Shown here in pieces: positions 3,284 to 63,260 of a stretch of 64,000 bases of DNA (positions within the stretch are counted from its first letter, which is position 1; each line of letters starts with the position of its first letter). The stretch lies in NCBI RefSeq assembly GCF_000013205.1, contig NC_007775.1:558001-622000 (forward strand). Reading direction: 5' to 3'. The stretch is from Synechococcus sp. JA-3-3Ab. GTDB taxonomy: Bacteria > Cyanobacteriota > Cyanobacteriia > Thermostichales > Thermostichaceae. The notes under the pieces are model-generated. The model had not been told where the DNA came from and searched no databases. It worked only from the letters and a program-made list of their open reading frames with translations. A program made the translations under genes and the position numbers.

Positions 3284-4600
3284 TCAAGGATTTGGCCTTG
3301 CTGAGGTGGATCCCCCCGAAAGGGGGTAGTGGAGCAAGCGCCGCCGCAGGCAATCCAGCGCCGTCTGGGCGCTCCACCAGCGCACCCCCTCTCGGCCCCG
3401 CAAGCTGCCGAAGCGGTACTCGTGGACTTCCACTTTCCCCTCCGGGTCGGCCAAGCCCAGATAGACCAGGCCAACCGGCTTGGTGGATGTTCCCCCCTCT
3501 GGGCCGGCAATGCCGGTAATGCTCAGGGCCCAGTCGGAGCCGAGGACTTGCTTGGCCCCCAGGGCCATCTGGGCCGCCACCGGCTCGCTCACGGCCCCGT
3601 GCTGCCGCAGCGTCTCTGGATCCACCCGCAAAAGCTGCTCCTTGATGCGGTTGTCGTAGGCAACAATCCCGCCGACAAAATAGCGGGAGCTGCCCGGGAT
3701 CCCGGTCACCAATTGCCCCAGGAGCCCGCCGGTGCAGGATTCCGCCACCGCCAGCGTTTGCCCCCGCTGCAGCAGCAGCTCCCCCACCACGCTGGCCAAG
3801 GTGGCCTCGTCGCTGCCGAAGTAGTCTTCCCCAGAAACCTGTAAAATCTGCTCCACCACCGGGGCAATCAACGCTTCCGCCGCCTCGCGCGTGGGGGCGC
3901 GTCCGGTAACCCGCAGGCGCACCTCCCCCTGGCTGGCGTAGGGTGCCACGGTGGGATTTTCCCCCGCCAGCAGGGATCCCACCCGTTCGGCCAAGGTCGA
4001 TTCGGGAATGCCCCAGTAGCGCAACACGCGGCTGTAGAACACCTCCTGGCCCCAGCCCAGGGAGCGCAAATAGGGCACAGCCGTCTCCTGCCACATCTGC
4101 TGCATCTCCCGCGGCACCCCGGGAAAGGTGAGGATGTGCAGGTCGGGCCGCGGCTGCCAGATGAGGCCACAGGCGCTGCCGACCGGGTTGGGCAGGACGG
4201 TTGCCCCCTGAGGCAAAAAGGCCTGCTTGCGGTTGCTGGGGGAGGGCTCCATACCTCGCTGGCCGTACTTCTGCCGGATCTCCTCCCAAACCTGCGGGTG
4301 CTCCACCATCTCCACCCCGAAGAAAGAGGCCAGCGCCGCGTGGGTCAGATCATCAGGGGTCGGCCCCAGGCCGCCGGTGATCAAAATCAAACGGGAGCGG
4401 TTGCAGGCCACCTCCAGGGCGTGGTGGATGCGGGCTTCGTTGTCCCCCACCACCGTTTGGTAATAATGGGGGATCCCCAGCTTGGCCAGCTCGGCTGCCA
4501 GATATTGGGCGTTGGTGTTGGTGATCTCTCCCAAGAGCAACTCTGTGCCAATGCAGAGGATCTCAGCCCCCTGGGGAATAGCGGTTTGCGGTGGGCTCAT
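3284..4600 (-). CDS. cinA: CinA-family protein (nucleotide amidohydrolase/pyrophosphatase)
   Basis: A 438-residue CinA protein. The N-terminal half is the MoaB/COG1058 domain (GTELLLGEITNTNAQYLA near residue 17 and ITGGLGPTPDD). The C-terminal half is the PncC-like domain (AVAESCTGGLLGQLVTG, YDNRIKEQLL, SITGIAGPEGGTSTKPVG). Family members hydrolyse NMN to nicotinate mononucleotide in the pyridine-nucleotide cycle and cleave ADP-ribose; some are competence- or damage-inducible. The frame is open further upstream, but I chose the ATG at 4600 because the CinA homology begins directly after it (MSPPQTAIPQGAEILCIGTE) and the longer N terminus is the reverse-strand shadow of the next gene. Both domains and their motifs are complete. 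Confidence 0.93.
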   Translation of the reverse strand: MSPPQTAIPQGAEILCIGTELLLGEITNTNAQYLAAELAKLGIPHYYQTVVGDNEARIHHALEVACNRSRLILITGGLGPTPDDLTHAALASFFGVEMVEHPQVWEEIRQKYGQRGMEPSPSNRKQAFLPQGATVLPNPVGSACGLIWQPRPDLHILTFPGVPREMQQMWQETAVPYLRSLGWGQEVFYSRVLRYWGIPESTLAERVGSLLAGENPTVAPYASQGEVRLRVTGRAPTREAAEALIAPVVEQILQVSGEDYFGSDEATLASVVGELLLQRGQTLAVAESCTGGLLGQLVTGIPGSSRYFVGGIVAYDNRIKEQLLRVDPETLRQHGAVSEPVAAQMALGAKQVLGSDWALSITGIAGPEGGTSTKPVGLVYLGLADPEGKVEVHEYRFGSLRGREGVRWWSAQTALDCLRRRLLHYPLSGGSTSARPNP

Positions 4601-26529: not shown

Positions 26530-26809
26530 TCCCCAAACTCCCAAGGGGACTCAAAATGTAATCTTAACTACTGCTCTGCGGAGATTCTCTGTGAGAAATT
26601 GCCTCGCCGCAGGGAGAAATTTCAATCCAAATCCCTCCTGATTTGAAGGGCCATTCTGAAAAATCAAAACGGTAAGATAAAATACAGAAATTACTTTTCC
26701 AGGATTCATTTTTGCTGGTTGGGATCGCCGTATCAAAGGCTACTGCAGCGATCCCCAGGCGGTGTTAGGGTAGATAGTAGGCTGAGCAGAGTGGGCTGGT
26801 GATCTAATT
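26530..26809. other. Intergenic region upstream of the DUF1830 gene
   Basis: About 280 bases, more AT-rich than the surroundings, and likely to carry the promoter of the DUF1830 gene. It contains GTAN8TAC at 26672-26685, but no TAN3T box at the expected distance, so I do not call it an NtcA promoter. Confidence 0.4.
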
Positions 26810-52359: not shown

Positions 52360-52412
52360 GTAGCCCAACTACGCCAACTGAAGGCACCTCTGGTTGAAGC
52401 GGAAAACTTTGC
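52360..52412 (+). pseudogene. 5' fragment of the AllA-type (ureidoglycolate lyase-like) gene
   Basis: Translated in the frame of the 3' fragment, these bases give VAQLRQLKAPLVEAENF and then the first two bases of an alanine codon. Joined to 59226 they continue APYGQAIYPAPDDKPF, the normal start of this cupin family in cyanobacteria. A TGA stands at 52357 and I find no standard start codon between it and the homology, so the very 5' end is unclear or has decayed. The urease block begins at the next base. Confidence 0.75.
52405..52412. repeat. Target-site duplication, left copy
   Basis: AACTTTGC directly abuts the left end of the urease block; the identical sequence abuts the right end at 59218. 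Eight bases is the usual duplication size for IS256-family insertion. Confidence 0.85.
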
Positions 52413-52414
52413 GG

Positions 52415-52690
52415 TCAAGTCGCGATTTTTGTGGGTTTCTCTTCCGCGGCCCAAAGCGGGTCCATGTCCAGGTAACGCCGGAAAGCCCAGTCCTCCGTGG
52501 CCCTCAGCATCACCACCGTGGCCAGATTCACCAGGCTCCCCTCGCCGGGGAAACTCCGCCGCTTCACCTCACGGATAAGCCGCTCCAGCACATTCGTGCT
52601 CTTGATGTGCCTCTGGTGGCCGCTGGGAAAGTCCAGGTAGGTCAGGGCCTCCCCCAGACCCTGGGCAAACACCTCCACCGCCCGCTTAAA
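52415..52690 (-). pseudogene. IS256-family transposase, C-terminal remnant (left copy)
   Basis: About 90 codons of the C terminus of a mutator/IS256 transposase (FKRAVEVFAQGLGEALTYLD, RHIKSTNVLERLIREVKRRS, LVNLATVVMLRATEDWAFRR) closed by the stop at 52415. It is very similar to the same region of the right copy but differs at several bases (for example PSGHQ here, PGVHQ there), so the two are not recent duplicates. Homology stops at about 52690, where AT-rich promoter-region sequence begins; the catalytic residues and inner inverted repeat are missing. Confidence 0.9.
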
Positions 52691-52714
52691 CCCGTACACA
52701 AACGCTTACACATA

Positions 52715-52764
52715 GCATACTGTCAGCGAAGTATTCGCTAACTGTATCGTTGCATACTGTCAGC
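52715..52764. repeat. Direct and inverted repeats in the urease promoter region
   Basis: GCATACTGTCAGC occurs twice (52715-52727 and 52752-52764), 37 bases apart, and a perfect inverted repeat GCGAA-GTA-TTCGC (52726-52738) sits between. The second copy overlaps the NtcA-type site. The region is AT-rich compared with both neighbours and may be an operator or an end of a further mobile element. Confidence 0.7.
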
Positions 52765-52786
52765 TTGGCTAATGCAACTTTATTTT
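52744..52786 (+). promoter_or_regulatory. Predicted NtcA-activated promoter of the urease cassette
   Basis: GTATCGTTGCATAC (52744-52757) fits GTAN8TAC, the NtcA consensus. After exactly 23 bases comes TATTTT (52781-52786), a TAN3T -10 box, which is class II NtcA promoter geometry and identical to the nirA promoter in this window. Transcription would start near 52793, 44 bases before ATG 52837. NtcA is the cyanobacterial activator of nitrogen-scavenging genes under low ammonium. Confidence 0.7.
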
Positions 52787-52801
52787 ATGCTTTCCACCAG
52801 G

Positions 52802-52820
52802 GTCGGACCTGAAGTCCGAC
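52802..52820 (+). promoter_or_regulatory. Leader hairpin upstream of the urtA-urtE scar gene
   Basis: GTCGGAC (52802-52808), loop CTGAA, GTCCGAC (52814-52820): a perfect 7-bp stem in the predicted leader, ending 5 bases before the ribosome site AGGAGG (52826-52831). It has no T tract, so it may protect the mRNA or tune translation. Confidence 0.6.
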
Positions 52821-52836
52821 TCGGAAGGAGGAACAC

Positions 52837-53103
52837 ATGGGAAAAGGCTGGAGGTTACTAGGGGTACTGCTAGGGGTACTGGGGGTGGTTAGCTTGGTGG
52901 GTCTGAGCCTCGCCCAAGGCCTTGCCCAAGGCGAGGTCAAGGTGGGCGTACTCCACTCCCTTACCGGCTTGGTGGAGCAGAAACTAGAGTTCGCCTGGAA
53001 CTTCGCCCAAAGATTTTACATAATGGACCGGGGACGTGTGATCCTGGAGGGTCGGACCTCGGAGGCCAGTCCGGAGACGGTGGGTCGGCTGATCAGCTTG
53101 TAG
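52837..53103 (+). CDS. UrtA-UrtE deletion chimera (urea transporter scar)
   Basis: An 88-residue open frame fused from two genes. Residues 1-44 are the signal peptide and start of a UrtA urea-binding protein ([14 protein letters not shown], then [13 protein letters not shown]). Residues 45-88 are the extreme C terminus of the UrtE ATPase ([40 protein letters not shown]). Everything from urtA through urtE has been removed by one in-frame deletion, leaving no transporter. The short frame is preceded by a good ribosome site and ends 8 bases before ureA, so it probably serves as a leader cistron. A 12-bp tandem duplication, CTAGGGGTACTG, lies at 52858-52881. Confidence 0.85.
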
Positions 53104-53111
53104 GAGAGGCC

Positions 53112-53414
53112 ATGCGGTTGACCGAACGCGAGATCGATAAGCTCCTGATTTTCCTGGCGGCCGAAGTCGCCCGACGCCGCCTTGCTCGGGGACTCAAGTT
53201 GAACCACCCCGAGGCGGTGGCCTTGATCACGGCGGAGGTACTGGAGGGTATTCGCGAGGGTAAAAGCGTGGCTGAGCTAATGGACCTGGGAGCCCAGGTA
53301 TTGAAACGGGAGGACGTAATGGACGGAGTGGCGGACATGATAGAAGAGGTTCAAGTAGAAGGCACCTTTCCCGACGGGACCAAGTTGGTAACGATCCACA
53401 AGCCTATTCGCTAG
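53112..53414 (+). CDS. ureA: Urease gamma subunit
   Basis: A 100-residue UreA, the small structural subunit of the (alpha-beta-gamma)3 urease, which hydrolyses urea to ammonia and carbamate in the cytoplasm. The family sequence is complete: [60 protein letters not shown] and [19 protein letters not shown]. It starts 8 bases after the urtA-urtE scar frame. Normal length; a terminator-like hairpin lies between it and ureB. Confidence 0.97.
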
Positions 53415-53452
53415 GGGGTAAAAATGCGGCCGCGGCCCTTTTTGCCTTGCTG

Positions 53453-53471
53453 GCCTCAGGGAGGCTTTTTT
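53453..53471 (+). terminator. Terminator-like hairpin between ureA and ureB
   Basis: GCCTC (53453-53457), loop AGG, GAGGC (53461-53465), then six T. The shape is that of a short intrinsic terminator, although the stem is only 5 bp. It stands in the 82-base gap inside the urease operon and could cause partial termination. Confidence 0.55.
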
Positions 53472-53496
53472 GGGAGATCTTGGTGCGAGGTGAATC

Positions 53497-53853
53497 GTGA
53501 TTCCCGGAGAAATCTTCACCGAGTCAGGGGAAGTGGAACTCAACCCCGGCCGCCGCACGGTCCGCCTCGAGGTGGCCAATACTGGGGACCGTCCTGTTCA
53601 GGTGGGCTCCCACGCCCATTTCTTTGAGGTCAACCGCGCCCTTCGCTTTGATCGAGAAAAGGCCTATGGGTTCCGCCTCAACATCCCCGCTGGAACGGCT
53701 GTGCGATTCGAGCCTGGGGAGACCAAGGTGGTGGAACTCGTAGAGATAGCGGGTCTTAGGAGGGTTTACGGTATGAATGCCTTGGTCATGGGCTCCTTGG
53801 AAGAGAAGCGGGCGGAGGCGCTCCGTGCAGCTCGGGAAAGGGGGTTCCTATGA
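53497..53853 (+). CDS. ureB: Urease beta subunit
   Basis: A 118-residue UreB. Matching regions: [80 protein letters not shown] and the closing [14 protein letters not shown]. The start is GTG 53497, the only start that keeps the full family N terminus. The last four bases overlap the ureC start. It packs against UreC in the mature enzyme. Confidence 0.97.
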
Positions 53854-55559
53854 GGCTTTCCCGGGAAGCCCGTGCTCGCCTTTATGGACCCACAGTAGGG
53901 GATCGGATCCGCCTGGCCGATACCAATCTGATCCTGGAGGTGGAAGAGGATTGGACCCTGCCCCCAGGAGAGGAGGCGGTCTTCGGCGGAGGAAAGACTG
54001 TCCGGGACGGCATGGCCCAGTCTCAGAGGAGCCGGTCGGAGGGAGCCCCCGATCTGGTGATTACCAATGCGGTGGTCCTGGACTGGTGGGGTGTTGTCAA
54101 GGCAGATGTGGGTGTCCGGGATGGGCGCATTGTGGCCTTGGGTAAGGCGGGCAATCCGGACATCATGGACGGCGTTACGCCGGGCTTGGAAATCGGTCCA
54201 GGAACAGAGGTCATCTCTGGCCAAGGTCGGATCCTCACCCCCGGAGGTATTGATGTCCATATCCACTTCATCGCTCCCCAGCAAGCTTGGGAGGCCCTCT
54301 TTAGTGGCATAACCACCATGACCGGGGGAGGTACCGGACCGTCCGAAGGAACCAAGGCCACCACCTGTACCCCGGGCCCTTGGTATATCCACCGGATGTT
54401 GGAGGCCCTCGAGGGGCTACCCCTTAACTTCGGTTTGCTGGGGAAAGGGAACGCCTCCTCGCCCCAGGCGCTGGAGGAACAGATCCTGGCCGGTGCTATC
54501 GGGCTCAAGATTCACGAGGATTGGGGGGCTACCCCCGCCGTTATCGACACCGCTCTGACCGTGGCCGAGGCCTACGATGTCCAGGTGGCCATTCACACGG
54601 ATACTTTGAACGAGAGCGGTTTTGTAGAGGATACGCTGGCGGCCTTCAAGGGGCGAACCATCCACACCTTTCACTCGGAGGGGGCCGGGGGAGGCCATGC
54701 CCCGGACATTCTCAGGGTAGTGGGGTACCCCAACGTGCTCCCCTCTAGCACCAATCCCACCATGCCTTACACGGTGAACACCCTTGACGAGCACCTGGAC
54801 ATGCTAATGGTGTGCCACCATCTAAGCCCCAATATCCCCGAAGACGTGGCCTTTGCGGAGTCCCGCATCCGACCCGAGACGATGGCAGCGGAGGATGTTC
54901 TCCATGATCTCGGAGCCATTAGCATGATGACCAGCGATTCCCAGGCCATGGGACGCGTGGGGGAGGTGATCCTAAGGACATGGCAGACAGCCCATAAAAT
55001 GAAAGAGGAGCGGGGTCCACTACCGCAAGACAGCACGAGGAACGACAACTTCCGCATCCGGCGATACCTGGCTAAATACACCATCAACCCGGCCATCGCC
55101 CACGGGATCGCTGAGTATGTGGGGTCCATAGAGCCCGGAAAGTACGCGGACTTGGTCCTGTGGCATCCGGCTTTCTTCGGCGTCAAGCCCGATCTAGTTC
55201 TCAAAGCTGGCTTTATCGTTGCTACGCCTATGGGAGATCCCAACGCCTCCATTCCCACCCCTGAGCCCGTCCGTTATCGCCCCATGTTTGCTGCTTTTGG
55301 CAAAGCGCTGACGCGAGTCTCGTTTACCTTTGTCTCCCAAGCCGCCCTGGAGAGGGGGGGGCTTCCGGCCGGGCTAAACCGTACTCTGCTTCCGGTACGG
55401 AAAACCCGGGGGCTCACTAAGAAGGATATGCGACTTAACGATGCCTTGCCCCAGGTAGAGGTGGACCCGGAGACCTATAGGGTTTTGGTGGATGGGGAGG
55501 AAATAACCAGCGAGCCTGCCAAGATCCTGCCTTTGGCCCAGAGGTACTTCCTTTTCTAG
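53850..55559 (+). CDS. ureC: Urease alpha subunit (catalytic)
   Basis: A 569-residue catalytic subunit with every active-site residue in place. Nickel ligands are His137 and His139 (DVHIHF), carbamylated Lys220 ([12 protein letters not shown]), His249 ([12 protein letters not shown]), His275 ([15 protein letters not shown]) and Asp363 ([14 protein letters not shown]). The mobile flap Cys322-His323 is in [10 protein letters not shown]. Length is the usual 567-570. The gene overlaps ureB by four bases. No frameshift or missing residue is seen, so an active enzyme is expected if the accessory proteins work. Confidence 0.98.
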
Positions 55560-55566
55560 GAGACTT

Positions 55567-56016
55567 ATGATCAAGACCTACGTGGTGACCCATCTTAGAA
55601 AGATGGAGGAGGGCATCCCTGAGGGGTTACAAGTGGTAGACTTACCCATGACCTCGGAGGAGCGTACCCAGGTGCGCCGGCGCTTGGAAACGCCAAGCGG
55701 CCTTGTCCTGAACCTGGCCCTGCCTACAGGAACTGTGCTTCAGCCAGGGCAGATTCTCTGTGTGGTAGAGGGTGTGGCCTACCGGGTAGTAGCAGCTCCG
55801 GAGGAGGTTCTCGTCATTTATCCCAGAAGTCTCAAGGAAGCGGCTCAAGTGGGCCACCTCATCGGCAATCTTCACCGCCCCATAGACCTTTCAGGGGAGG
55901 TGATTGCGATCCTCTACGATGCCGCTTTGGAAGAGCGGTTACGGAACCTTGGTTTGGTAGTGGTTAGGGAAATGCGCTCTTTCGCCAAGACCCCTCTGCC
56001 TGGGCATAGCCACTAG
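55567..56016 (+). CDS. ureE: Urease accessory protein UreE (nickel metallochaperone)
   Basis: A 149-residue UreE that hands nickel to the UreG-UreF-UreD complex. The N-terminal peptide-binding domain (VVDLPMTSEERTQVRRRLET) and the metal-binding domain (HLIGNLHRPIDLSGEVIAIL) are recognisable, although divergent; the metal-site histidine is likely that of GNLH. The C terminus ends GHSH, a short histidine tail instead of the long runs of some bacteria. It starts 7 bases after ureC. Confidence 0.9.
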   Translation: MIKTYVVTHLRKMEEGIPEGLQVVDLPMTSEERTQVRRRLETPSGLVLNLALPTGTVLQPGQILCVVEGVAYRVVAAPEEVLVIYPRSLKEAAQVGHLIGNLHRPIDLSGEVIAILYDAALEERLRNLGLVVVREMRSFAKTPLPGHSH

Positions 56017-56022
56017 CGCTCC

Positions 56023-56676
56023 ATGAAGGAAGTAACCCTCCTCAGGCTTTTCCAACTCGCTGATACGGCCTTCCCGGTAGGAAGCTTTGTGCACTCCTAC
56101 GGCTTGGAATCCTACGCGGCCGTTGGATTGGATCCTGGAAGGATACCCGATCTGATCCTCGCTGACCTTCGGCTTGGGCAGCTTCGTTTGGATCTAGCCG
56201 CCTTGGTGCTGGCCTTTGAGAAGAGTCCCGACCTCGAGGCCCTGCAACGGCTTAACGCCCTGCTTACCGCATGGAAGCCGGTACGGGGGGCCAGAGAGGC
56301 CAGCCTGCAGGTAGGAAGACGCGTTCTGGCGCTTCTAGGCCGTCTATATCCCAACCTGCCTTGGCCACCCTTACGGGAAGGGCATCAAGCAGTAGCCTGG
56401 GGTATTGCGGGAAAAATGCTGGGGCTTGAGCGGGAACCTCTGGCCCTGGCCTTCCTGCACACTTCCGTACAAGCTTTGCTTTTGGCCGGAACCCGGGTGT
56501 TCGCGTTGGGAGCTGAGCGTGCCCAACACATGCTTTGCTCCCTTCACTCTTCCATGGCCAAAACGGTGCAAGAGGTACTCCGCAACCCTGATGAGGCGTT
56601 GTTTGCCGCTACGCCTGCCTGGGACCTGAGAGCGCATCAACAGGACTTCCTATGGACCAGGCTGTTTCAGAGCTAA
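56023..56676 (+). CDS. ureF: Urease accessory protein UreF
   Basis: A 217-residue all-helical UreF that bridges UreD and UreG during nickel insertion and acts as a checkpoint. Family landmarks: [30 protein letters not shown] and the segment [20 protein letters not shown]. The later helices ([40 protein letters not shown]) are normal. It starts 6 bases after ureE and overlaps ureG by 25 bases. Confidence 0.93.
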
Positions 56677-57296
56677 GGAGGGGGATTGTGAAACCGGTAA
56701 AAATCGGTGTGGCCGGGCCTGTCGGCTCAGGGAAAACCGCCCTTATAGATCGGCTGGCCAAAGCCATGCGGGATCGCTACAACCTTGCGGTGATCACCAA
56801 CGACGTCTACACCTATGAGGACGCCGAATTCCTTGTGCGCTCGGGGGCTCTTCCCCCCGAGCGGATCGCAGGGGTGAGGACGGGAGGATGCCCTCATACG
56901 GCCATTCGCGAAGACCCTGCAGCCAACCAGGAGGCGGTGGAAGCCATGCTGGCCCGCTTCCTCGATCTGGACATCCTTTTTTTGGAATCAGGGGGGGATA
57001 ATCTCGCTGCTTCCTTTAGCCCAGAACTGGTGGACGTGTGGATCTATGTGATCGATGTGGCTGCGGGAGACAAGATTCCCCGCAAGGGGGGCCCGGGCAT
57101 TGAAAAAAGCCATCTCCTGGTGATCAACAAGATCGATCTTGCCCCTTTGGTTGGGGCCGACCTTGGGGTCATGGAGCGGGATACGCGGCTCAAACGGGGT
57201 TCACGTCCTTGGGTGTTTACCAACCTCAAGACGGGGGAAGGGCTGGATAGCGTGGTGGAGTGGATCCGACGGGAGGTCCTCTTTGAGGGAGACTGA
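56652..57296 (+). CDS. ureG: Urease accessory GTPase UreG
   Basis: A 214-residue SIMIBI GTPase that powers nickel insertion. G1 is [17 protein letters not shown], the metal-binding CPH motif is [15 protein letters not shown]3-like [20 protein letters not shown], and G4 [15 protein letters not shown]. All nickel and GTP residues are present. ATG 56652 overlaps ureF; a GTG at 56688 ([10 protein letters not shown]) would give a 202-residue protein closer to many homologues. Confidence 0.96.
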
Positions 57297-57312
57297 GGCG
57301 TCCCCACCAGCT

Positions 57313-58104
57313 TTGGTTAGCCAATTTTTGGTTAGCCAATTGGAATTGGAGTTCATCGCTATCGGCGGCCGGACCCACCTGCGTAGGGCTTACAGCCGCG
57401 GTGCCCTCAAAGTGCTAAGGCCCTTTCCCTATGGGGAAGGCCTGGTGTTGCAGCTTTTGACCCTTGGCCCTGGCCTTATGGGAGGGGACCAGGTGGAGAT
57501 CCGGGTTCATGTTGCTCCGGGGGCCAAGGTAATCCTCCTCAACCAATCGGCGACCAAGGTTCTCCCTGCCCGGGGGTATCGACCGGTGGTTCAGAGGCTC
57601 CTTTTTCGGGTGGAAGGCTTTTTGGAGTACTACCCCGGCCTCACCATTCCCCACCCCGCCTCGGCCTTGGACCAAAGGATGGAGGTGAGTTTGGGAACGG
57701 AAGCGTCTTTTAGCTGGATGGAAATGTATGCCCTAGGGAGATTAGCTAGAGGAGAAGTGGGAAAGTTTAAGTGGATTCGCGCCCGAACGGCGATTTTCGG
57801 CCAGGTTCCCTTTTATATGGACGCTTTGGAGCTCCTTCCTGAGGAGCTGGGTCCAAACCACCCAGGGGTTCTAGAGGGTCACCCCTACCTTGTGTGCGGT
57901 TTCTGGAACTGGGAAAGTCACCCCTTCTTTGAGGAAACGGAAAACGGGCTTCTAGGAGTGGGGCTTACCGCGTTCAGGCACTCTTTTCTTAGGGGGATTG
58001 GGAACAAGGAGGTGACCCAGAGGGCCCTAAAGATTTGGAGTCAGGAAAGAGCCTTAAGGGGGCTTCCAGCCGTAGACGTAATGCGCTATAGCAGCGCCCT
58101 TTAA
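57313..58104 (+). CDS. ureD: Urease accessory protein UreD (UreH)
   Basis: About 263 residues. UreD is the scaffold that binds apo-urease and UreF-UreG. Family regions: AYSRGALKVLRPFPYGEGLV, GLMGGDQVEIRVHVAPGAKV, LLNQSATKVLPARGY and MEMYALGRLARGEV. The frame has no ATG; TTG codons at 57313 and 57328 are the likely starts. They lie in a 15-bp tandem duplication (TTGGTTAGCCAATTT) that encodes LVSQF-LVSQL, so the N terminus may be in flux. The stop lies within a perfect 24-bp palindrome. The gene is placed last in the operon. Confidence 0.88.
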   Translation: MVSQFLVSQLELEFIAIGGRTHLRRAYSRGALKVLRPFPYGEGLVLQLLTLGPGLMGGDQVEIRVHVAPGAKVILLNQSATKVLPARGYRPVVQRLLFRVEGFLEYYPGLTIPHPASALDQRMEVSLGTEASFSWMEMYALGRLARGEVGKFKWIRARTAIFGQVPFYMDALELLPEELGPNHPGVLEGHPYLVCGFWNWESHPFFEETENGLLGVGLTAFRHSFLRGIGNKEVTQRALKIWSQERALRGLPAVDVMRYSSAL

Positions 58105-58114
58105 AGGGCGCTGC
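58091..58114. terminator. Perfect 24-bp palindrome at the ureD stop codon
   Basis: GCAGCGCCCTTT followed immediately by its exact reverse complement. The RNA would fold into a hairpin that includes the ureD stop TAA (58102-58104). There is no T run behind it, so it may stabilise the 3' end of the urease mRNA or terminate inefficiently. Confidence 0.6.
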
Positions 58115-58159
58115 CTGGCCGCTTGATCGTGTAAGAGGCTGTCGTAAAAGTCCTCCACA

Positions 58160-59217
58160 GGTCAAGTCGCGATTTTTGTGGGTTTCTCTTCCGCGGCCCA
58201 AAGCGGGTCCATGTCCAGGTAACGCCGGAAAGCCCAGTCCTCCGTGGCCCTCAGCATCACCACCGTGGCCAGATTCACCAGGCTCCCCTCGCCGGGGAAA
58301 CTCCGCCGCTTCACCTCACGGATAAGCCGCTCCAGCACATTGGTGCTCTTGATGTGCCGCTGGTGAACCCCGGGAAAGTCCAGGTAGGTCAGGGCCTCCC
58401 CCAGACCCTGGGCAAACACCTCCACCGCCCGCTTAAACCGGTCCCGGTAGCGCTCAACGAACCCCCGGGCCAGAGATTCCGCCGTGCCCCGCCGCCGCGC
58501 CACAAACACCTCCTGGAGGGAGCCGCTCCGACTGCGGCACATGAGCTAAAACGTTCCGCATAAAGTGCACCACGCACCGCTGCCAGCTGGCCCCAGGAAG
58601 CTCCGCCATCACCGCTTGGCGGATGGAAGGGTGGTCGTCGGAAATGACCAGCCTCACCCCATGAAGCCCCGCTCCACCAGGCCCTTCAGCAGGTTCCTCC
58701 AGGCCTCCTCCTCCAGGCGCTGGGCTACCCTGGAGACCGCGTCCTTACCGATGCGCACCCGGGACACGCCCTCCGTGATGGCCGCTACCTTGCGGGTGGA
58801 GACCCCTTGCAGGTACATCTCCAGCACCGCCTCTGCTTTGGGGCCCCTACCCCAAATGAACCGCTACCTCCCCGGTCATCCGCTTGTACCGCTCAAAGAC
58901 CTCGGTCAGGAAAGTCCCCTCCCGGTCCCGGGGTACCCGGAGCTGGGCGATCCTGCCCGCCGGCGTGATGAGGTCCCGGGTGTAGTAGCCGTTCCGCTCC
59001 CCGCGGCGGCTTGGGGTGCGCTCACGGTAACCCGCAGCCAGGTGCTCGGTCATTTCTTCTTCCAACACCTGCTCGTTCGCGTAAGCGGTGCGGAGCACTA
59101 TGACGGCCTTGACCCCTTCCCGGATGCGCCGGCTGATCTCCTCCTTGGTCAACCTCTTGAGCTCCTCTCGGTCCATTCCGCCCTCCATGCTTAACCCACA
59201 AAATACGCGACACTACC
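58160..59217 (-). mobile_element. IS256-family element, right copy, with both inverted repeats
   Basis: The inner end GGTCAAGTCGCGATTTTTG (58160 onward) is identical to the left end of the whole block, and the outer end at 59217 is its imperfect inverse. At 1058 bp it is shorter than the normal 1.3 kb for this family, consistent with the internal losses in its transposase gene. Confidence 0.85.
58162..59188 (-). pseudogene. IS256/mutator-type transposase, frameshifted
   Basis: The gene begins at ATG 59188 (MDREELKRLTKEEISRRIRE, RRGERNGYYTRDLITPAGRI). It meets a stop after VAVHLG near 58847 and resumes in another frame (AVLEMYLQGVSTRKVAAITE, VAQRLEEEAWRNLLKGLVER). It shifts again near 58657 (VRLVISDDHPSIRQAVMAEL, WQRCVVHFMRNVLAHVPQSE) and once more near 58510 to end in the same C terminus as the left copy. 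A segment around 58847 also seems lost. At least three lesions make it inactive. Confidence 0.9.
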
Positions 59218-59225
59218 AACTTTGC
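59218..59225. repeat. Target-site duplication, right copy
   Basis: AACTTTGC, identical to 52405-52412, directly outside the right inverted repeat of the urease block. Confidence 0.85.
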
Positions 59226-59655
59226 CCCTTACGGGCAGGCGATCTACCCTGCTCCCGACGACAAGCCTTTCGACAGCTCAGATGCCCAGTTGTTTTTGAA
59301 TCAGGGCCAGCCCCGCTTTTACCTCATGCGCCTGCCCCGCCGCGGCCTCAAGTTTAGCCAAATAACCCGCCACACCCGTTGCACCCAGTGCCTGGGATCC
59401 CTGCACGGCAAGGAGTGGTTTATCGCCGTCGCGCCGCCCGCCGACGAGCTGCAAGTGGACGAGATTCAGGCTTTTCGGGTGCCCGGCGATCGCTTTATCA
59501 AACTGGAGATGGGCACCTGGCATGCCGGCCCCTACTTCGACCACGAGGAGTTCATCGATTTCTATAATCTGGAGCTGGCCGACACCAACCTCACCGACCG
59601 CGAGACGATCAACCTGCTCCAGACCTACAACCTGGAGTTTCAGATCGTCCCCTGA
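59218..59655 (+). pseudogene. 3' fragment of the AllA-type (ureidoglycolate lyase-like) gene
   Basis: From 59218 the frame reads NFAPYGQAIYPAPDDKPFDS, then NQGQPRFYLMRLPRRG, RHTRCTQCLGSLHGKEWFIA, VPGDRFIKLEMGTWHAGPYF and DHEEFIDFYNLELADTNL to the stop at 59655. This is a cupin of the AllA type; family enzymes cleave ureidoglycolate to glyoxylate and urea, though the activity of cyanobacterial members is not established to my knowledge. Only about the first 18 codons are cut off by the urease block. A TTG at 59290 could start a 121-residue remnant that keeps most of the cupin. Confidence 0.85.
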
Positions 59656-61470: not shown

Positions 61471-61641
61471 GGGAAACTTGGTCTACTATATCCCTCTCAA
61501 TGACTTTTGCCAAACCGCCTAAAGCTCAGTAAATTCAGCAAAGTTCAGGGTTTTGGGGGTTAGAGGCATGCTCCTGGAAGACTGACTTTATGCATAAAGC
61601 GCAATTCGAGAATGACAAAACTGCATAACCTGTTACAAAGT

Positions 61642-61684
61642 GTAACTGCCAATACCAAAGTTAACGGTTCGTCATCGCTAGGGT
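61642..61684 (+). promoter_or_regulatory. NtcA-activated nirA promoter
   Basis: GTAACTGCCAATAC (61642-61655) is a perfect GTAN8TAC; 23 bases later TAGGGT (61679-61684) fits the TAN3T -10 box. The start would be near 61691, 22 bases before ATG 61713. Overlapping the site is an inverted repeat GTTACA-AAG-TGTAAC (61632-61646) that may bind a second regulator such as a LysR-type protein. Confidence 0.85.
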
Positions 61685-61712: not shown

Positions 61713-63260
61713 ATGGCGAACCAATTTGAACGCCTCAAAAGCGAAAAGGATGGGCTGGCGGTCAAGGCCGAGCTGGAGGCGTTTGCCCGGATGGGTTGGG
61801 AGAACATTCCTGAAGACGACCGGGATCACCGCCTCAAGTGGCTGGGGATCTTCTTTCGCAAGCGCACCCCAGGTCAGTTCATGCTGCGGCTGCGCCTGCC
61901 CAATGGGATCCTAACCAGCGGCCAAATGCGGATGTTGGGCGCAATCATCCACCCCTATGGAGAACAGGGCGTAGCCGACATCACCACCCGGCAGAACCTG
62001 CAACTGCGCGGCATCCCCATTGAAGAAATGCCCCAGATCCTGGGCTACCTGAAAGAGGTAGGCCTGACCAGCATCCAGTCGGGCATGGACAACGTGCGCA
62101 ACATCACGGGATCCCCTCTGGCCGGTATTGACCCGGATGAGCTGATCGATGTGCGCGGTCTCACCCGCAAGGTGCAGGACATGGTTACCAACAACGGCGA
62201 GGGCAACCCTTCCTTCAGCAACCTGCCGCGCAAGTTCAACATCGCCATCTGCGGTTGTCGCGACAACTCCGTGCATGCGGAGATCAACGACCTGGCCTTT
62301 GTGCCCGCCTTCAAAAATGGCCGCCTGGGCTTCAACGTCCTGGTGGGCGGCTTTTTCTCGGCTCGCCGCTGCGCCGAGGCAATTGGCCTAGATGTCTGGG
62401 TGGATCCCCGCGATGTAGTTCCCCTGTGCGAGGCGGTGCTGCTGGTCTACCGGGATCACGGCCTGCGGGCCAACCGGCAAAAGGCGCGGTTGATGTGGCT
62501 CATTGACGAGTGGGGCCTAGAGAAGTTCCGGGCGGCTGTGGAGCGCCAGATAGGCCACCCTCTGCCCAGGGCAGCGGAAAAAGACGAGGTGGTCTGGCAC
62601 AAGCGGGATCTGCTGGGGGTGCATGCCCAGAAGCAGCCGGGCCTCAACTTTGTCGGCCTGCATGTGCCGGTGGGGCGGCTCAACGCCCTGGAGATGATGG
62701 AGCTGGCCCGCTTGGCGGAGGTGTACGGCTCCGGGGAGCTGCGGCTGACAGTGGAGCAGAACGTGCTCATCCCCAATGTGCCCGACTCCCGAGTGGCCCC
62801 GCTCCTCAAAGAGCCGCTCTTGAAGAAGTTCTCCCCCAACCCAGGGCCCTTGCAGCGGGGGTTGGTGTCCTGCACGGGCAACCAGTTCTGCAACTTTGCC
62901 CTTATCGAGACCAAAAACCGGGCTGTGGCCTTGATGGAGGAGCTGGAGGCGGAGCTGGAGATCCCCCAAACGGTGCGCATCCACTGGACGGGCTGCCCCA
63001 ACTCCTGCGGCCAACCCCAAGTAGCCGATATCGGCCTTATGGGCACCACTGCTCGCAAGGACGGCAGGGTGGTGGAGGCCGTGGACATCTACATGGGGGG
63101 AGAGGTGGGCAAAGACGCCAAGCTGGGCGAATGCGTGCGCAAAGGGATCCCTTGCGAAGACCTCAAGCCGGTCTTGGTGGAGCTGCTCATTGAACACTTT
63201 GGGGCCAAGCCGCGTCAGCATCCGTCCGCCGCCCAGGCTTCTGTTTTGGTAACCCGCTAG
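61713..63260 (+). CDS. nirA: Ferredoxin-nitrite reductase
   Basis: A 515-residue siroheme and 4Fe-4S enzyme reducing nitrite to ammonium with six electrons from ferredoxin. Two nitrite/sulfite reductase half-repeats are visible (FMLRLRLPNGILTSGQMRML and LNFVGLHVPVGRLNALEMME). The cluster cysteines are in VSCTGNQFCNFALIETK and HWTGCPNSCGQPQVAD, all four present. The N-terminal half carries ADITTRQNLQLRGIPIEE and GMDNVRNITGSPLAGID. The C terminus is normal for cyanobacteria. It is the first gene of the nitrate locus, followed by nrtA, and is controlled by the NtcA promoter directly upstream. Confidence 0.97.
   Translation: MANQFERLKSEKDGLAVKAELEAFARMGWENIPEDDRDHRLKWLGIFFRKRTPGQFMLRLRLPNGILTSGQMRMLGAIIHPYGEQGVADITTRQNLQLRGIPIEEMPQILGYLKEVGLTSIQSGMDNVRNITGSPLAGIDPDELIDVRGLTRKVQDMVTNNGEGNPSFSNLPRKFNIAICGCRDNSVHAEINDLAFVPAFKNGRLGFNVLVGGFFSARRCAEAIGLDVWVDPRDVVPLCEAVLLVYRDHGLRANRQKARLMWLIDEWGLEKFRAAVERQIGHPLPRAAEKDEVVWHKRDLLGVHAQKQPGLNFVGLHVPVGRLNALEMMELARLAEVYGSGELRLTVEQNVLIPNVPDSRVAPLLKEPLLKKFSPNPGPLQRGLVSCTGNQFCNFALIETKNRAVALMEELEAELEIPQTVRIHWTGCPNSCGQPQVADIGLMGTTARKDGRVVEAVDIYMGGEVGKDAKLGECVRKGIPCEDLKPVLVELLIEHFGAKPRQHPSAAQASVLVTR

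Follow-up and report, generated by a model that had tools for sequence, protein, structure and literature searches.

A Thermus-type composite transposon carrying the only intact urease of Synechococcus sp. JA-3-3Ab, and the probable donor origin of its promoter

The transfer of a urease cassette from Thermus to Synechococcus is already known (PMC4477158). In the portions of that article available here, the cassette is confined to PE A1 strains, is absent from A4 and A14 and is >90% identical to that of Thermus islandicus. The strain, gene set and Thermus affinity of this 'Cluster 1 urease' (JA-3-3Ab, 65AY6Li) agree with those of the cassette described below, and the two are very probably the same; the same portions contain no transposon ends, target duplication, urtA–urtE scar, landing gene, native gene decay or promoter. 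A related operon is found on plasmid 4 of Thermus thermophilus TTHNAR1 (NZ_LR027520). Its gene order, urtA-B-C-D-E-ureA-ureB-ureC...ureG, is the one implied by the scar at the present locus, its UreC is 81.5% identical to the cassette UreC and the region above its urtA is likewise AT-rich. The plasmid differs in having kept urtBCDE, in a stop codon within urtA and in its upstream sequence, which contains a promoter-like site, TTGACA-17-TATACT. The urtA stop is early, in frame and unannotated (4300–4500 of the extracted region).

Composite transposons with Mutator/IS256-type ends share with our locus two co-oriented insertion sequence (IS) copies, intact outer ends and an 8-bp target duplication; the locus differs in having a mere 283-bp stub as its left copy and a broken transposase in its right one. 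Class II NtcA promoters, such as those of nirA, glnA and ntcA, comprise a GTAN8TAC core and a TAN3T box 22–23 bases downstream. Both elements occur above the cassette, but the site there differs in that its flank and score fall below those of all genus sites and in lying within a repeat array. A preliminary description had proposed that this site places the cassette under host nitrogen control. In this study, we analysed the cassette, its vehicle and its upstream segment within a 64-kb stretch of the genome (the window), in comparison with related genomes and Thermus plasmids.

The transposed unit and its landing site

Positions 52413–59217 of the window form one transposed unit bounded by the ends of a Thermus IS of Mutator/IS256 type. 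Its borders are as follows.

52405–52412, unstranded: left 8-bp target-site duplication, AACTTTGC
52413–52695, minus strand: truncated left IS with intact outer end and a C-terminal transposase fragment
58160–59217, minus strand: right IS copy with both ends present and the transposase broken by frameshifts
59218–59225, unstranded: right 8-bp target-site duplication, AACTTTGC
59226–59655, plus strand: ureidoglycolate-lyase-like host gene (PF04115), right part after the interruption

Five relatives have an empty site, with no insertion and a single copy of the target; in the host, AACTTTGC stands on both flanks. The left stub matches the right copy, from its first base on, over 283 ungapped bp (98%). 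The transposase belongs to family PF00872, and the IS matches eight Thermus plasmids; T. aquaticus pTA78 carries a 238-bp deletion derivative that retains both IS ends. No copies of the IS beyond these two were found in the host. Neither encodes a functional transposase, the left being a stub and the right frameshifted, and the unit is therefore now a fossil, immobile by itself. The transferred operon adjoining IS remnants that had been described earlier is thus supported. In the relative G004, a lone 61-bp piece (574855–574915) reproduces the right end of the Thermus-type IS with 100% identity, which indicates that this IS reached that lineage too.

The cassette, the urtA–urtE scar and the native urease genes

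The unit carries seven ure genes, all open, preceded by a short fusion ORF.

52837–53103, plus strand: 88-residue in-frame fusion of a UrtA N-terminus and a UrtE C-terminus (TIGR03410, residues 45–87)
53112–53414, plus strand: ureA, urease gamma
53497–53853, plus strand: ureB, urease beta
53850–55559, plus strand: ureC, urease alpha, the product 81.5% identical in amino acids to the T. thermophilus plasmid copy
55567–56016, plus strand: ureE
56023–56676, plus strand: ureF (PF01730)
56652–57296, plus strand: ureG
57337–58104, plus strand: ureD (PF01774), start approximate

Both in gene order and in having its closest relatives in Thermus, the cassette corresponds to a Thermus urt–ure operon, T. 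islandicus being included through PMC4477158 alone. A genome-wide search with UreC returned no Thermus among the matches listed, and a comparison with viral contigs gave one distant fragment.

The ORF at 52837 had been taken for the first cistron. An ORF with an ATG does begin there, behind AAGGAGG at 52825–52831, but it is a UrtA'–'UrtE fusion and no normal gene: its start aligns with Thermus urtA and its end with Thermus urtE. Given the Thermus order urtA-B-C-D-E-ureA, such an ORF points to an in-frame deletion that removed the transporter and left the donor urtA start. Judged by these alignments, it is the scar of a deleted urtABCDE.

The native urease genes of the host have decayed. ureC is missing beside psaB, where five relatives have it; two frameshifts interrupt ureG, and ureA has degenerated close to a transposase ORF (host 756500–760000, 2609500–2613500), whereas both genes are intact in G004. 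The native urtA is retained by the host. The cassette is consequently the only intact urease and presumably expressed, which suggests that it works and has replaced the native enzyme. The replacement of an enzyme by a cross-phylum transposon is thus well supported. If the cassette is in use, a promoter for it exists; with the native urease ruined and the cassette genes intact, the host's only urease is most likely expressed from segment 52696–52836.

Origin of the upstream segment

The following features lie between the left IS and the scar ORF, with the nirA promoter added for comparison.

52696–52790, plus strand: AT-rich (40% GC) promoter segment, probably a remnant of the donor urtA upstream region
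52715–52764, unstranded: repeat array of direct and inverted repeats
52744–52757, plus strand: NtcA-core-like palindrome GTATCGTTGCATAC, weak by the host profile
52781–52786, plus strand: TATTTT, putative −10 box (TAN3T) 23 bases downstream of the core
52793–52829, plus strand: leader hairpin GGGTCGGAC-CTGAA-GTCCGACTC, just before the RBS of the scar ORF
61642–61684, plus strand: NtcA promoter of host nirA, conserved in the genus

The segment is indeed AT-rich, as first described (40% GC in 52695–52790 against 60% in the window), and distinct from both neighbours. It had been regarded as a promoter captured or evolved between the IS and the coding region; its position instead places it inside the transposed unit, where it begins exactly at the break of the left IS. 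Native landing-site DNA was rejected as its source, since relatives show uninterrupted sequence at the empty site, and no second copy was found in the host genome. For a promoter segment directly above the scar and within the unit, a donor origin is the simplest reading and, the supposed first cistron being the UrtA–UrtE scar, the segment is most likely a remnant of the donor urtA promoter.

Comparison of 52696–52839 with the T. thermophilus urtA upstream region revealed a weak similarity, equalled in 28 of 1000 shuffles; by part, 31 of 1000 shuffles did as well as the leader and 262 of 1000 as well as the upper part taken alone. That one Thermus region is AT-rich too (43% GC), with a GC-rich leader. 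A plasmid search with 52696–53100 gave no Thermus match. The leader hairpin of the cassette has a predicted stability of −19.2 kcal/mol, matched in 11 of 200 shuffles. A search of the segment for a sigma-70 promoter with a −35 box gave none, as would be expected if an activator is needed; the missing box fits activator dependence as well as a decayed promoter.

We therefore favour, with a probability of about 0.65, the reading that a Thermus-type composite transposon brought in the urease together with a leftover donor urtA promoter, which now drives the host's only urease. The transposon (52413–59217) would have jumped into the ureidoglycolate-lyase-like gene of the cyanobacterium, with 52696–52836 arriving inside it as a remnant of the promoter and leader of the donor urtA. 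One internal deletion would have fused urtA to urtE in frame and a further one cut the left IS, the two together putting the promoter directly above ureABCEFGD. The match to an NtcA core would then amount to no more than a weak site and could have arisen as a side effect of the repeats. We also infer that the cassette is expressed and that strong NtcA control is absent.

The repeat array and the candidate NtcA site

Within 50 bp, the array holds two perfect 13-bp direct repeats, GCATACTGTCAGC at 52715 and 52752, and an imperfect 14-bp inverted repeat (86%; 52717–52730 and 52734–52747). The right arm of the inverted repeat and the first bases of the second direct repeat together make up the NtcA-like core, whose GTAT and ATAC halves sit in separate repeat arms. 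Such an arrangement would suit an operator at 52715–52764 for another regulator, either the donor's or a CRP-type relative in the host, with GTAN8TAC as a by-product. Folding of the repeat is unexceptional, however (21 of 200 shuffles are as good), the array is absent from the one Thermus urtA upstream region compared and no candidate regulator was identified, which leaves this operator a tentative and on balance unlikely explanation. A 16-base piece of the array had five scattered matches in viral contigs, taken as chance.

The proposal of a working class II NtcA promoter at 52744–52786, at which NtcA and 2-oxoglutarate would activate the transferred urease under nitrogen shortage, starts from letters that were described correctly: the core at 52744 is followed after 23 bases by TATTTT, and the nirA promoter (GTAACTGCCAATAC at 61642–61655, ATG at 61713) likewise has 23 bases before its TAGGGT. 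In the urease segment, TATGCT at 52785 could serve as the −10 box instead. A second NtcA-like site, GCATAACCTGTTAC, lies at 61623–61636, 19 bases upstream of the nirA site. The host genome encodes NtcA, and the lack of a −35 box would also suit this proposal. GTAN8TAC is rarer by chance than the roughly one per 4 kb assumed earlier, 1.65 copies being expected in the 64-kb window and seven found; three of these sites fall within 190 bp (26558–26743), two of which receive high scores from the genus NtcA profile.

The combined geometry had been considered improbable by chance. Locally this holds: the plus-strand class II pattern arises in 0.35% of dinucleotide shuffles of the 142-bp upstream segment, and in 0.05% with the exact N23 spacing, although this rarity is local and the site was picked after the 64 kb had been read. 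Genome-wide it does not, GTAN8TAC-N20–24-TAN3T having 25 matches in 2,932,766 bp against 37 for the reversed control; the geometry alone therefore carries no signal and is no mark of an NtcA promoter. Among the 25 matches, some lie upstream of glnA, nirA, ntcA and the formamidase gene, which are credible NtcA targets. At the urease site, a second match, on the minus strand, passes through the same palindrome, GTATCGTTGCATAC.

As a yardstick we used 'footprinted' sites, i.e. sites found repeatedly in the promoter of a given gene across the genus. They comprise nine families (nirA, glnA, ntcA, a LysR gene, an ilvB-like gene, an ABC transporter, a dihydroorotase-like gene, formamidase and a BMP-family gene), with the dihydroorotase-like and formamidase profiles built from one locus each. 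Each family was left out in turn for scoring, and the training set is small, so that the scores are rough. The urease site reached 4.4 bits, the lowest of all sites compared and unlike the extended sites of genuine genus promoters (9.1–27.6 bits), and it is without the A-rich TAC[A/C]AA flank that nearly all genus NtcA sites carry. Among the 127,868 positions of the 64-kb window it comes 10th when spacing and −10 box count, but 48th by the binding site alone and 95th with a non-symmetric profile.

Its spacing agrees better: all genus sites have 22 or 23 bases, and the geometry (core, 23 bases, TAN3T) is that of nirA and of further NtcA promoters in the host. A spacing of 23 recurs in the nirA, ntcA, ilvB, amiF and ABC promoters of the host genus, the last also with TATTTT; the notion that TATTTT is foreign to host NtcA promoters was accordingly rejected, since the ABC-transporter promoter of relatives uses it. 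Of the genus genomes examined, at least three share a conserved class II pattern upstream of the acetolactate-synthase-like gene (ilvB). Compared with the genus profile, the Anabaena ChIP consensus (PMC3898017) is less detailed; by our own position count, the urease site agrees with it at T4, C5 and A11 and at five of the six flank positions given there as A/T.

Although NtcA canonically targets urtA in Anabaena (PMC3898017), no GTAN8TAC was found within about 420 bp upstream of the native urtA of the host or of its G004 counterpart, and canonical NtcA sites were found neither at host urtA nor at urtA, ureA and ureG of one relative. The cassette, and hence its upstream site, occurs in one of the six genus genomes compared. 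NtcA is a cyanobacterial regulator, so that a Thermus-born segment would match its site only by luck or later mutation. The earlier idea of a host NtcA promoter thus keeps its geometry and its host-encoded factor, against a low score, a missing flank, overlap with a repeat array and urea genes without canonical sites. We regard a working NtcA promoter at this site as rather unlikely, and host nitrogen control of the cassette through NtcA as similarly doubtful. A combined history, in which after a single transposition NtcA came to read a Thermus-born promoter from the deleted transporter operon, or that promoter became adapted to NtcA, as the native urease was decaying, is improbable.

That the segment is debris, such as the end of another mobile element, above a silent or read-through-transcribed cassette would accord with its start at the IS break and with the lack of a sigma-70 promoter in it, but is very unlikely in view of seven open ure genes set against decaying native ones and of an upstream gene and IS fragment on the opposite strand.

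Were NtcA control nevertheless real, a foreign urease would have been drawn into the nitrogen regulation of the host during the decay of the native one. On the favoured reading of a leftover donor promoter, the locus documents nearly every part of a single transfer between phyla in a hot-spring mat: the vehicle, the landing site, the trimmed transporter, the foreign promoter and the decaying native enzyme. How a Thermus operon is expressed and regulated in a cyanobacterium thereby becomes a directly testable question.
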